A stretch of 64,000 nt of DNA from Sphingopyxis sp. FD7 (GTDB lineage Bacteria > Pseudomonadota > Alphaproteobacteria > Sphingomonadales > Sphingomonadaceae): NCBI RefSeq assembly GCF_003609835.1, contig NZ_AP017898.1, positions 1,736,001 through 1,800,000 on the forward strand. Direction: 5' to 3'. Positions 41,385 through 45,978 of the stretch are shown piece after piece. A model generated the notes under the pieces. The model had not been told where the DNA came from. It ran no database searches and saw nothing but the letters and a program-made list of their open reading frames with translations. Each line of letters opens with the position of its first letter. The stretch's first letter is position 1. The position numbers and the translations under genes are program-made.

Positions 41385-42515
41385 ATGGACATGTTGAACG
41401 ACCCCGCGCTGCTGGCCTTTCGCGACGAGGTTCGCGCCTTTCTGCGCGCGAACCTGCCCGAAGACATCCGCCACGGCGCGGCGCGCGCAACGAGCGTCTT
41501 CATCGACCCCGCCATCTCGCTGCCCTGGCAACGCATCCTGCATCGCAAGGGCTGGGCCGCGCCCGACTGGCCCGCCGAGTTCGGCGGTCCGGGGTGGACC
41601 GAGATCGAGCGCTATATCTTTGCGGCCGAATGCGCGCGCGCGGGTGCGCCGAACCTCGCGCCGATGGGGCTCAAAATGGTCGCGCCGGTGATCATGCATT
41701 ATGGCAGCGCCGAACAGCGCGCCCATTATCTGCCGCGCATCCTGTCGGGCGAGGATTATTGGTGCCAGGGCTTTTCGGAGCCCGGCGCGGGGTCCGACCT
41801 TGCCGCGCTGCAATTGCGCGCGGTGCCTGATGGCGACGATTATGTCCTCAACGGGTCGAAGATATGGACGACGCACGCGCATTTCGCGAACCGCATGTTC
41901 GCGCTGGTGCGCACCTCGACCGAAGGCAAGCCGCAGGCAGGGATCAGCTTCCTGCTGCTCGACATGGCGACGCCGGGAATCAGCGTCGAACCGATCCGCA
42001 CGCTCGCGGGCGACCATGAGTTCAACCAGGTCTTTTTCGACGAGGTTCGCGTGCCGCAGGCGAACCGGCTGGGCGCCGAAAATGCCGGCTGGTCGGTCGC
42101 GAAACATCTGCTGACCTTCGAGCGCGGGGGCAAATATGCGCCGGGCCTGATCGGGCGGCTCGAACGGCTGCGCGCGTTCGGCGGTCACGACCCTGTGCTG
42201 CGCGCCGCGCTCGACCGCGAGGCCGTGGCGCTGCGGGCGCTGCAAGCGCTCGAGCTCAAGGCGATGCGCGGGGTCGGCGGCAGTCCGGCGCTCCATGCCT
42301 CGGCGCTCAAGATCCTCGGAACGGAGGCAGCGCAGCGCATCGACACACTTGCCTGCGAAGCCATGGGCCAGGCAGCGTGGGCCGAGGCCGACGGACAAGT
42401 GGCCGACGAACTGGCGGTCGCCGTGCCGCGCTATCTGAACGACCGCGCCGCGACCATCTATGCCGGGTCGAACGAAATCCAGCGCGACCTGATTGCACGA
42501 ACGCTGCTGGGTTAG
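41385..42515 (+). CDS. Acyl-CoA dehydrogenase, larger (alpha-type) subunit
   Basis: This 376-residue FAD enzyme has the ACAD signatures WCQGFSEPGAGSDLAAL and YVLNGSKIWTTHA, the FERGG helix and the C-terminal IYAGSNEIQRDLIARTLLG. It oxidises an acyl-CoA to the 2-enoyl-CoA. Length and C-terminus fit the larger subunit type of heteromeric sterol/steroid ACADs (FadE29-like). A second ACAD of 338 residues lies convergent downstream, a natural partner candidate. Its TAG stop is the first three bases of the repeat element 42513-42658. Confidence 0.93.
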   Translation: MDMLNDPALLAFRDEVRAFLRANLPEDIRHGAARATSVFIDPAISLPWQRILHRKGWAAPDWPAEFGGPGWTEIERYIFAAECARAGAPNLAPMGLKMVAPVIMHYGSAEQRAHYLPRILSGEDYWCQGFSEPGAGSDLAALQLRAVPDGDDYVLNGSKIWTTHAHFANRMFALVRTSTEGKPQAGISFLLLDMATPGISVEPIRTLAGDHEFNQVFFDEVRVPQANRLGAENAGWSVAKHLLTFERGGKYAPGLIGRLERLRAFGGHDPVLRAALDREAVALRALQALELKAMRGVGGSPALHASALKILGTEAAQRIDTLACEAMGQAAWAEADGQVADELAVAVPRYLNDRAATIYAGSNEIQRDLIARTLLG

Positions 42516-42658
42516 GGCCGATCGACATTCAGAAGCTGGCGAGTCGAAAATGGTGGTTTTCCGTGGTCCGGAGCGCAGCGCGCTTTTTGCACATGAGCAG
42601 CGGAAGCGCGGAAGGCCGCCATTTGCAGACCGCCAGAGCTGAATGGCGATTGGTCCTA
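42513..42658. mobile_element. 146-bp element with terminal inverted repeats, copy 1
   Basis: The left end TAGGGCCGATCGACATTCAG (42513-42532) is a 20-bp terminal repeat; the right end (42639-42658) is its inverse with three mismatches. The first 50 or so bases are identical to copy 2 at 44813. No coding frame of note is inside. The terminal TAG is the stop codon of the upstream ACAD, and on the other strand the right end supplies the TAG of the convergent ACAD. It looks like a non-autonomous (MITE-like) or mobile terminator element. Confidence 0.85.
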
Positions 42659-43672
42659 GGCGGCCGCAGAACGCGCCAGATGACCGGCACGCGCGCCGAA
42701 AGCCGCGACGATGGCGAGCGCGCGTTTGAAATGGCCGCCAAGGCGGAGCTCCTCGGTCAATCCCATCGCGCCGTGAATCTGCACCGCACTTTCGCCGACG
42801 ACCCGCACCGCATCGGCGACTTCGATGCACGCCGCGCTGACTGCCGCCGCGCGGTCGGCGTGCGCCCGGTCGACGGCAAGAATGGCCTCCTCCGTCAGCG
42901 CCGCCGCCTTCATCATCGCCAGCTGCATGTCGGCGGCGCGGTGGCGCAACGCCTGAAAATGCCCGATGGGTGCCCCGAACTGCCGCCGCTGGCTCATATA
43001 GTCGATGCTGTCGGCGATCATCCGCTGCATCAGCCCGACGGCCTCGGCGCAACGCGCCGCGAGGATCAGATCGGTCGTCAGGTCGGCCGCGCACGCCGCG
43101 GCGTCGCCCGACGCGAGCAACTCCGCATCATTGGGTTGCAGCGCCACCGTCAAATCGGCAGTCACGCTGCCGTCGTGCATGATACGATGGCGCTGTTCGA
43201 CCTTGTCATGGTCGGCGGCGATGAGCATCAGCGCGTCGGGATCGGCAAGCAGCAGCAAATCGGCTTCGGCCGCGCCCGCGACGAGCGCCGCGCCGCCGCG
43301 CACCGCGCCCGCGTCACAGACCGGCATCGACGCGGCCGACGCGGCACAGATCGTCGCGATCCGGCGCTCGCCGCTCGCAAGGCCGGGCAAGGCCCGGTGC
43401 GTCGGCGCGACGGCGCCGAGGATCATCGTCGCGGCGACGTGCGAAAGCCAGTCGGCGCCCGCCAGCGCCGGCCCGAGTTCGGCGATCACCAGCGCGATGT
43501 CGATCGCACCGCCGCCGAAGCCGCCGGCGGCCTCTGGCACGGCGAGACCGGCAAGCCCGAGCGCATCGGACAACTCGCGCCAGCCGGGCTGCGCATGGTC
43601 GGCCAGAAAGCGTTGCACGCTTTCGAGCAGCACCCGCTGCTCGTCGCTGAGCGGAAGGTCCAGCGTGGCCAT
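42656..43672 (-). CDS. Acyl-CoA dehydrogenase, smaller (beta-type) subunit
   Basis: The 338-residue protein is a diverged ACAD: N-terminal DEQRVLLESVQRFLADHAQPG, middle GLAVPEAAGGFGGGAIDIALVIAELG, and C-terminal YMSQRRQFGAPIGHFQALRH with VQIHGAMGLTEELRLGGHFKRAL. It lacks the usual IYEGT-type ending. The size and ending match the smaller subunit of heteromeric ACADs in steroid side-chain degradation (FadE28-like). Alone it may be inactive. The stop codon lies in the right terminal repeat of the 146-bp element. The upstream region carries CTGAC-N6-GTCAG (43771-43786) and an AT-rich segment. Confidence 0.88.
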   Translation of the reverse strand: MATLDLPLSDEQRVLLESVQRFLADHAQPGWRELSDALGLAGLAVPEAAGGFGGGAIDIALVIAELGPALAGADWLSHVAATMILGAVAPTHRALPGLASGERRIATICAASAASMPVCDAGAVRGGAALVAGAAEADLLLLADPDALMLIAADHDKVEQRHRIMHDGSVTADLTVALQPNDAELLASGDAAACAADLTTDLILAARCAEAVGLMQRMIADSIDYMSQRRQFGAPIGHFQALRHRAADMQLAMMKAAALTEEAILAVDRAHADRAAAVSAACIEVADAVRVVGESAVQIHGAMGLTEELRLGGHFKRALAIVAAFGARAGHLARSAAA

Positions 43673-43903
43673 GTCAGAATATGGCCGCGTCGGTTGCGGG
43701 CGCGCGGATGATGCTATCGGTCATTGTGTCTCCCGCCCCGCTTGTGCCGCGGTCCGTGGCGCGGGTCTAGCTGACGCGCGTGTCAGGTCGCACAGGCCCC
43801 CTCGCCGCCATATACTTAGTAATAAAACTATTGCATGGGGCACCATGCGCAAAGCGGGACGAATCGGGACAGCGGCGCCGCGAGGCGCAGAGGAGACGGG
43901 GCG

Positions 43904-44815
43904 GTGAATCCGATCTGGCTTCCTGCATCGCTGCTCGGCGGCTTGTTTCAGGCATGGCGCACCGCGCTCCAGCAACGCCTGCGCGCCGAGCTCAGCGTCA
44001 GCGGCGCAGGGCTGGTTCGCTATCTCTACGGCGTGCCCTTCGCATTTTTTCTGGCGGCGATCTGGCTCGCGATGCAGGGCGATGCGGCGCCAGCCCTTGA
44101 CAAGGCCTTTGCGGGCTTCGCCGTCGCCGGGGCGATCACGCAGATGGCGGGCACGATCCTGCTCATCATGGCATTCGGACACCGCGGCTTTATCGTCGGT
44201 ACGGCCTTTTCCAAGACCGAGGCGGTACAGGCAGCGCTGGTAACGGCATTTTTTCTCGGCGAACGACTGCCCCTGCTCGCCTGGTTCGGCATCGTCGCCG
44301 GGGTCGCGGGGGTGCTCATGCTCGCGCTGGCCGGGCGCGGCGTTTCGGCGGGCGAGGTCTGCCGCGCTCTGGGCCAGCCCGCCGCGCTCTGCGGCCTCGC
44401 TGCGGGGGCGATGTTCGCCCTCGCGGCGATAGCGGTCAAACTCGCGACCGCCGAGCTGGAGGGCGTCGACCTCATCGGGTCGGCGCTGATCACGCTCGTC
44501 GCCGTGATGGCGATCCAGACGAGCTTGCACCTGCTCTGGGTTGCCATGCGCGACCGCGCGACGCTCGCCGCCGTGTTTCGGACCTGGCGCAATTCGAGCC
44601 AGGTCGGCTTGCTTTCGGCGCTTGGTTCGGCCTGCTGGTATGTGGGTTTTGCCGCCGCACCCGCGGCGCTGGTTCGCGTCGTCGGCCAGGTCGAGGTTGT
44701 CTTCACCGTCGGCTTTGCGCATTTCTACCTGCGCGAGCCGGTACGCTGGCACGAGATTGCGGGGCTGCTCCTCGTCGTCGGCGGCGTGGTGATGGCGCTG
44801 ATCGCGACGCTTTAG
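43904..44815 (+). CDS. DMT (EamA-like) membrane transporter
   Basis: The 303-residue protein has about ten hydrophobic helices in two EamA-like halves (LVRYLYGVPFAFFLAAIWLAM; LLSALGSACWYVGFAAAPAALV) with a KTEAVQAALVTAFFLGERLPL block typical of DMT exporters or permeases. The substrate is unknown. The start is GTG at 43904 after AGGAGA. It is divergent from the small ACAD and its TAG stop lies in copy 2 of the repeat element. Confidence 0.82.
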   Translation: MNPIWLPASLLGGLFQAWRTALQQRLRAELSVSGAGLVRYLYGVPFAFFLAAIWLAMQGDAAPALDKAFAGFAVAGAITQMAGTILLIMAFGHRGFIVGTAFSKTEAVQAALVTAFFLGERLPLLAWFGIVAGVAGVLMLALAGRGVSAGEVCRALGQPAALCGLAAGAMFALAAIAVKLATAELEGVDLIGSALITLVAVMAIQTSLHLLWVAMRDRATLAAVFRTWRNSSQVGLLSALGSACWYVGFAAAPAALVRVVGQVEVVFTVGFAHFYLREPVRWHEIAGLLLVVGGVVMALIATL

Positions 44816-44959
44816 GGCCGATCGACATTCAGAAGCTGGCGAGTCGAAAATGGTGGTTTTCCGTGATCCGGAGCGCAGCGCGCTTTTTTTGCACGTGAGC
44901 AGCGGAAGCGCGGAAGGCCCCCATTTGAGACCGCCAGAGCTGAATGTCGATCGGCCCTA
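44813..44959. mobile_element. 147-bp element with terminal inverted repeats, copy 2
   Basis: Both ends are perfect 20-bp inverted repeats (TAGGGCCGATCGACATTCAG). It is a direct repeat of copy 1, differing by a few substitutions and two extra T in the internal T run. Its outer TAG triplets are the stop codons of the DMT transporter (plus) and the HMG-CoA-lyase-like gene (minus). Copies 1 and 2 bracket a 2.2-kb segment. Confidence 0.88.
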
Positions 44960-45859
44960 GGGAAAAGCGGGCGCCCGGCTGACCATCGCGGGCAATGGCC
45001 GATTCATCACGCCCGTCAGCCACCCGGCCGCGTCCACGGCCCGCGGCAAATCGAGTCCCGTACCGAACCCGCTGTTTTCGAGCATATAGACGACATCTTC
45101 GGTCGCGACATTGCCCGCCGCGCCGGGGGCAAAGGGGCAGCCGCCGAGTCCGCCGAGCGACGCATCGACCGTCGCGACGCCTTCCTGCACCGCCGCCCAG
45201 ACATTCGCGATGCCCGTGCCGCGCGTGTTGTGGAAATGCACGCGCACCGGAACGCCGCCGATCGCTTCGCGGACGCGGCCGACCACCTCGGCGACCTGCG
45301 CGGGTACGCCAACCCCGATCGTGTCGGCGAGCGCGATTTCGCGCGGGGCCGCGTCGGCGGCGCGCTTCGCCATCTCGACGACGCGGCCGATCGCCACCCG
45401 GCCCTCAATGGGACAGCCGAAGGCGGTTGCAATGGTGATCTGGCCGCTGCGGCCGGCCTTCTTTGCCAGCGCGACGATCTCCATCGCGGCGGCGAGCGAT
45501 TCGTCGGAGCTTTGCCCCTGATTGCGGATGCCGAAGCTGTCGCTCGTCACGCACACGGCGCCGAGTTCATCTATGCGCCCGGTGGCGACCGCACGTTCGG
45601 CGCCGCGACGGTTGAGGACGAGGCCGATAAAGGTCACATCCTCGCGATCGGGCAGCATCGCGACAAGCTCTTCCGCATCGGCGAGTTGCGGCACCTTCTT
45701 CGGATTGACGAAGCTCGTCACTTCGATGCGGCGCACGCCATAATCGATCGCGCGCCGGATCAGCGCGAGCTTGTCGGCGGTCGCGACGGTCGCCGCTTCA
45801 TTCTGCAGCCCGTCACGCGGGCCGACCTCGACGATTTCCACGGCATGATTTCTCAACAT
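44957..45859 (-). CDS. Hydroxymethylglutaryl-CoA lyase family enzyme
   Basis: This 300-residue DRE-TIM-barrel protein has the metal/catalytic start VEIVEVGPRDGLQNEA, VTSFVNPKKVPQLADA, HFHNTRGTGIANVWAAV with the His-x-His ligands, and the lid motif GGLGGCPFAPGAAGNVATED with the catalytic Cys. All HMG-CoA lyase hallmarks are present. It cleaves 3-hydroxy-3-methylglutaryl-CoA or a longer 3-hydroxy-acyl-CoA by retro-Claisen reaction. The start at 45859 (MLRNHAVEIV) is favoured. It is divergent from the CoA-transferase gene. Confidence 0.93.
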   Translation of the reverse strand: MLRNHAVEIVEVGPRDGLQNEAATVATADKLALIRRAIDYGVRRIEVTSFVNPKKVPQLADAEELVAMLPDREDVTFIGLVLNRRGAERAVATGRIDELGAVCVTSDSFGIRNQGQSSDESLAAAMEIVALAKKAGRSGQITIATAFGCPIEGRVAIGRVVEMAKRAADAAPREIALADTIGVGVPAQVAEVVGRVREAIGGVPVRVHFHNTRGTGIANVWAAVQEGVATVDASLGGLGGCPFAPGAAGNVATEDVVYMLENSGFGTGLDLPRAVDAAGWLTGVMNRPLPAMVSRAPAFP

Positions 45860-45904
45860 CCTGGCCTCGGTCCCATGCGAGTCATTTAGCAGGTTGAAAA
45901 TTAC

Positions 45905-45916
45905 ATAGCATTCTAA
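45905..45916. promoter_or_regulatory. AT-rich motif in the lyase/CoA-transferase divergent promoter
   Basis: ATAGCATTCTAA (45905-45916) matches 9 of 12 bases of the perfect palindrome TTAGTATACTAA at 47776. The flanking CTAAGTATA also appears, inverted, at about 43812-43820 before the DMT/ACAD pair. It may be a weaker site for the same regulator, or just a promoter -10 region. Confidence 0.35.
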
Positions 45917-45978
45917 GTATAAGATGACCATGGGTGTTATGGGCCGACCCTATCAGAGCCGGCCGCGAAAGGAACGAT

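Follow-up and report, generated by a model that had tools for sequence, protein, structure and literature searches.

A MITE family, probably of IS5/IS427 type, with copies on the shared stop codons of convergent genes in Sphingopyxis and other bacteria

The 64,000-nucleotide stretch of Sphingopyxis sp. FD7 analyzed here (contig NZ_AP017898.1, positions 1,736,001 to 1,800,000; referred to as the window) carries two copies of a short element, each lying so exactly between two convergent genes that its borders coincide with the stop codons of both. These copies are very probably miniature inverted-repeat transposable elements (MITEs) of an IS5-family, IS427-group type that insert at the TA of YTAR sequences and are steered to the stop codons at gene ends. 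They are short, lack a transposase gene and are bounded by terminal inverted repeats, the features by which a MITE is recognized. Copy A with its TA duplications occupies 42513..42658 (+ strand, 146 bp) and consists of a TA at 42513-42514, the element proper at 42515-42656 (142 bp) and a TA at 42657-42658. Copy B occupies 44813..44959 (+ strand, 147 bp), with a TA at 44813-44814, the element proper at 44815-44957 (143 bp) and a TA at 44958-44959. The two share 94% identity, and the 20-bp terminal repeat is perfect at 42513 (+), 44813 (+) and 44940 (-), while the fourth, at the right end of copy A (42639-42658, -), has three mismatches; with up to three mismatches allowed, four matches were found against 0.01 expected. 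The preliminary description of this DNA, which reported twin elements with 20-bp terminal repeats between convergent genes, was thus borne out, with one imperfect repeat end.

At all four junctions the border TAG is the end of the abutting open reading frame (ORF). The TAG stops of two acyl-CoA dehydrogenase genes, at 41385..42515 (+) and 42656..43672 (-), form the left and right borders of copy A, and those of an EamA (DMT-type) transporter gene (43835..44815, +) and an HMGL-like gene (44957..45931, -) form the left and right borders of copy B, all four genes being identified by ORF and Pfam match. The outer TA is host DNA, namely the target duplication, and the element contributes only the G of each TAG. 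The earlier claim that the border TAG is the gene stop at four junctions therefore stands, while the TAG is not the element's own; similarly, the idea of a module carrying its own stop codons holds for a single base per TAG and fails for the rest.

The closest relative, G064, is 95 to 97% identical in the window region and lacks both copies, having one TA at each site (CTGGGC-TA-GGCGG at site A and GACGCTT-TA-GGGAAA at site B); compared with it, each window insertion consists of the element plus one additional TA. The single TA lies inside both convergent stops, the forward one being TAG and the reverse one TAG at site A or TAA at site B. As the element has G as its first base at either end, both genes end in TAG after insertion. 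Gene order in G064 is the same without the elements, and in this one strain the 2.15-kb segment between them shows no sign of having been deleted or shuffled, an outcome that had been suggested for such direct repeats. Of 10 further FD7 sites compared with G064, seven were empty and three unreadable, and YTAR was present at four of the seven (L002, L007, L008 and L009). The empty site of L009 reads GCCTAGCG, and the FD7 copy there has retained TA on the gene-stop side, the opposite side reading TG. In addition, ten both-stop sites of relatives were queried in six genomes, and the six with matches across the junction were aligned; an empty orthologue with a common YTAR stop was present in at least one genome for five of them (L055, L061, L066, L223 and L229), the gene ends at L223 being unshared in FD7 and G064. 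Empty sites at the two window loci and elsewhere, together with the target counts, thus support the proposal that the element goes into overlapping stops, for example at CTAG, where genes lie tail to tail. In the 46 copies flanked by TA on each side, the target was CTAG in 31, TTAG in 13, and CTAA and ATAG in one each; the copy with the CTAA target (L217) has CTAG at its left end and TAA at its right.

In the family-wide search with the terminal repeat, three pairs of inverted copies with a spacing of about 854 bp came to light that proved to be insertion sequences (IS). They encode an IS5-family transposase divided between two reading frames, with matches to NF033580 above the cutoff as well as to PF13340 and PF01609 when one first and one second ORF were examined. 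Paired repeats 850 to 855 bp apart were found at 15 of 17 IS loci, four of them in the same genus as FD7 (G055, G044, G028 and G001), and the core TAGG-NNNN-ATCG(A/C)CATT, allowing one substitution, is present at both ends of 15 of the 17. The IS repeats vary chiefly at bases 5 to 8, like those of the MITE copies; one end at L344 carries the exact window repeat, and one at L345 differs from it by a single outer base. TA is present on both sides of 13 of 15 IS loci, all 13 at YTAR. In the seven partner IS inspected, the long ORFs lie in different frames, with a conserved AAAAG near nucleotide 406. In contig C1 of G055 (L180/L237), an 853-bp IS has inserted precisely at the TA that ends a MITE copy. 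From the near-identical ends, the same target and the same duplication, we infer that the transposase of such an IS moves the MITE. The partner is likely a member of the IS5 family of IS427-group type, the group being assigned by features rather than from a tree or ISfinder. IS427-group elements of Paracoccus (IS1248, ISPpa6 and others) are described, in the part of that account available, as mostly 832 to 865 bp long, with a 2-bp duplication (4 bp in one member) and two overlapping ORFs with a frameshift motif (PMC3281130); the partner IS is like them in size, 2-bp duplication, overlapping ORFs and slippery-type site, while the window element differs in lacking a transposase. Excerpts on IS5 of Escherichia coli give its target as Py-T-A-Pu, most often CTAG, a sequence termed underrepresented (PMC5493358, PMC11677980). 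The MITE family has the same target, but IS5 duplicates 4 bp (PMC5493358) and the MITE 2 bp.

Copies of the terminal repeat, for which the preliminary description had proposed a search of the genome and of related sphingomonads, are dispersed in both. In FD7 there are 28 matches to the 147-bp sequence at 18 places, every one on contig C1, and 12 of the 18 are near full length with 88 to 100% identity. MITE matches were identified in 51 of 148 genomes, 47 of them (FD7 counted) in the same genus; five candidates were scored per genome in this survey, so that "no match", including that for G015, means none among those five. When searched alone with up to one mismatch, the terminal repeat occurs in 56 of 347 family genomes, which represent 33 of 96 genera; the matches listed included one from the reversed control. 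Plasmids carrying the MITE are represented by 23 records, from Sphingobium (n = 12), Shinella (n = 7), Phyllobacterium (n = 2), Allorhizobium (n = 1) and Novosphingobium (n = 1). Eight of 20 listed plasmid records were inspected, a sample tilted toward stops as seven were picked on account of a gene overlapping the match: in the deposited annotation of the Shinella HZN7 plasmid both genes stop on the border TAGs, in six records (H6, H7, H9, H10, H12 and H16) one deposited gene does so, and in H1 none does.

Placement relative to stop codons was tabulated for 71 copies, as earlier suggested. Both ends lie on stops in 13, one end in 30 and neither in 28; thus, an end falls on a neighbor's stop in 43 copies, 13 of which serve both convergent genes, and the placement seen in the window is common without being exclusive. 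This set was made without 11 of the 29 loci of L055-L083 (L067, L069, L073, L075 and L077-L083), which lie at a contig edge or are partial, older matches. Some copies are orthologous and not independent (L015/L074/L234 and L070/L225) or share part of their flanks (L239/L368 and L068/L228), none of them being of the both-stop class. Genes outside the window were called using a codon-score script trained on the window, with a gene-score limit of 12 for copies and 15 for the background; when both were rerun at 12, 15 and 25, the totals (28, 30 and 13) were unchanged and the conclusions the same. A Pfam check of the twenty proteins at ten both-stop sites gave matches for 18 at an E value of ≤0.001, two of the 18 falling below the Pfam cutoff.

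A census of four genomes comprised 38 copies, 18 in FD7 and 20 at an E value of 1e-12 or better in G068, G070 and G053 (15 of the 20 being in the set beforehand), with both ends on stops in eight, one in 12 and none in 18. As background, 444 kb of FD7 sequence contains 369 noncoding YTAR sites, 1 of which lies on a shared stop, a figure that by nature excludes sites already occupied, and in 400 kb of G015, where no copies were detected, 3 of 349 such sites are shared stops and 55 single stops. Compared with G015, the census is enriched for both stops (p = 6e-7) and for any stop (p = 2e-6), and remains so when the gene-score limit is tightened (6e-6 and 2e-4, respectively), these statistics resting on small numbers and a background from two genomes. 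Divergent gaps are underused in the 71-copy set (6/70 versus 84/349, p = 0.004) and more weakly so in the census (p = 0.07).

Of all 4-mers, CTAG shows the strongest depletion in the two sampled genomes, with observed/expected ratios of 0.43 and 0.49, followed by CTAA/TTAG, and of the classified YTAR sites only 186 of 555 in FD7 and 133 of 482 in G015 lie inside genes. Among FD7 copies L001-L012, the duplicated TA is lost at 10 of 15 nonstop ends (in L002 and L004-L012) against about 1.2 expected from 4% element divergence, a comparison in which divergence was taken from 11 copies and the TA count from 12. What stands in its place is most often TG at the left end or CA at the right. This suggests that CTAG-type sites erode unless kept as stops, although stop ends retain TA by definition, making the contrast with nonstop ends partly circular.

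These data can be combined in an explanation in which a noncoding palindromic MITE would be moved in trans by an IS5-family transposase of IS427-group type. It inserts, with duplication of TA, into YTAR, mostly CTAG, as the empty sites show. Where the TA common to overlapping convergent stops is hit, both genes remain full length with TAG stops, as at the empty and filled window sites; insertion into overlapping stops is harmless to both proteins because of the target and the element's first base, G. With CTAG scarce and YTAR lying mostly outside genes and often on stops, insertions would be steered to gene ends, a step that the counts bear out in part, and insertions in genes and promoters may then be lost, which would further enrich those between convergent genes.

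Several observations weigh against this explanation or limit it. The location of YTAR sites alone does not account for the shared-stop excess (8 of 38 copies versus 3 of 349 sites); shared stops are about 20-fold overrepresented relative to the YTAR sites of G015, so selection or an unrecognized preference is also at work. Within convergent gaps, there is no excess of "any stop" over G015 (p = 0.12 for 66 copies; 0.39 to 0.55 in the census), where 17 of 32 YTAR sites in such gaps are stops anyway; much of the any-stop bias is thus due to where YTAR sites lie. The excess of shared stops inside these gaps is modest and consistent (p = 0.007 to 0.016). The IS copies contact stops less often than the MITEs (any stop, 3/15; both, 0/15). 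Three of the seven readable G064 empty sites are not YTAR (TGACC at L004, CTGG at L011 and TTGG at L012), therefore requiring a later change in one lineage, and the sole aligned orthologue of L065, in G059, has separate stops. In addition, no intact IS bearing these ends was detected in FD7: the 49 sites examined included no inverted pair at IS spacing, and the best of 14 IS5-type matches was 51% identical. In G064 one repeat end remains, beside a partial first ORF.

Other origins and roles were weighed. An IS630/Tc1-mariner MITE resembling the pneumococcal RUP, which is attributed to IS630-Spn1 (PMC2229807), would share the 2-bp TA duplication, but five PF13358 loci in 4 of 10 genomes lack the terminal repeat at up to four substitutions, and near-identical repeats flank IS5-family elements instead; an IS630/DDE_3 partner was accordingly rejected and this origin is extremely improbable. 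It is also very improbable that the element supplied the stops by landing in gene ends and truncating or extending the genes. The G of each TAG does belong to the element, and orthologous stops differ at L065 and, in FD7 and G064, at L223. However, at the two window sites and five of the six other both-stop sites, empty orthologues in at least one genome have stops in the same place, evidence on which truncating insertion was rejected; moreover, truncation predicts about two ends inside the element per border TAG, and convergent genes ending inside it are few (L013, L068, L221 and L235).

A domesticated bidirectional terminator or insulator, in which a hairpin of the whole element stops or protects both transcripts so that insertions are kept, is unlikely, although several findings fit it. 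On each strand copy B forms one hairpin (-97 and -88.4 kcal/mol, z scores of -11 and -12), and copy A folds as well (-88.8 and -68.2 kcal/mol). In an alignment of 27 copies made without L063, L008 and L235, 12 of 53 pairs, some of them beyond the terminal repeat, have changes on both sides of the stem. The target alone fails to explain the shared-stop excess, in some other species the corresponding junctions contain different inverted-repeat sequences, and contact with stops is commoner in MITEs (43/70) than in IS copies (3/15; p = 0.004). Against this, a scan of 42400-45100 for intrinsic terminators (a GC stem followed by a T run) gave four sites, none within either element, whose T run sits in the hairpin loop and not 3' of the stem. 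The end pairs may also change together since both ends are recognized alike, and most of the IS sample comes from other genera, in which genes are called with less certainty. An Rfam search returned one subthreshold match, outside the elements. The element could possibly end or protect transcripts; that it acts as a mobile separator, its shared-stop insertions being favored because the hairpin serves both transcripts while the G-first ends spare both proteins, is doubtful. Were it so, the genome would repeatedly gain ready-made 3' ends via transposition.

ERIC and Correia elements lie near gene ends. Together with RUP, NEMIS (named with Correia) and YPAL, they are small palindromic repeats like the MITE family, a likeness drawn from partial descriptions and not from sequence. 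According to the summary consulted, RUP targets TA, and YPAL lacks TA termini and duplicates 3 to 26 bp (PMC2229807); identity with YPAL was ruled out by the TA duplication. QMITE2 of Coxiella, reported mainly in 3' untranslated regions, is likewise near gene 3' ends, but the available part of its account does not describe exact sharing of stop codons (PMC10969869). Titles and opening lines of abstracts contained no description of this MITE family or of a MITE on shared stops, a weak negative as most subscription papers were not covered. We regard the elements as members of a MITE family of IS5/IS427 type that is new although its kind is known. Its insertion niche is unusually exact, and both this exactness and how often the niche is used merit attention from specialists. 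The family offers a clear, testable case of how a transposon can enter a genome where it is most compact, at base pairs belonging to two stop codons at once, with neither protein altered. Three facts are tied together: CTAG is scarce, it is an IS5-family target and two TAG stops can overlap in it. Convergent gene pairs that carry or lack the element also constitute natural experiments on intergenic read-through.

Several side observations were made. Other sequences of about 120 to 160 bp are present at junction A in L115 (G045), L116 (G039), L117 (G067) and L118 (G028) and at junction B in L120 (G051), several with visible inverted repeats, and the two junctions may be insertion hot spots. In the 444 kb of FD7, 9 of 49 convergent gaps, both window sites included, measure 140 to 164 bp, which hints at further element families. 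Weak sigma-70-like promoter matches (+) lie at the same place in each element (42522-42551 and 44822-44851), matching 9 of 12 consensus positions, with two found versus 0.5 in shuffles. At G000:C1:1613461-1615491 (L249 13461-15491), a Vsr-type endonuclease ORF adjoins one that by eye resembles a cytosine methyltransferase, and Vsr is present in 5 of 13 genomes of the genus; as a lead only, this gene may bear on the scarcity of CTAG in FD7, which in enterobacteria is attributed, in an excerpted source, to very short patch (VSP) repair (PMC5337935). The MITE family is present on Hyphomicrobiales plasmids (L369 and L371, from Shinella). In L061 (G040; 85-2228), genes with Aconitase and Aconitase_C domains lie tail to tail, with the MITE on their common stop.

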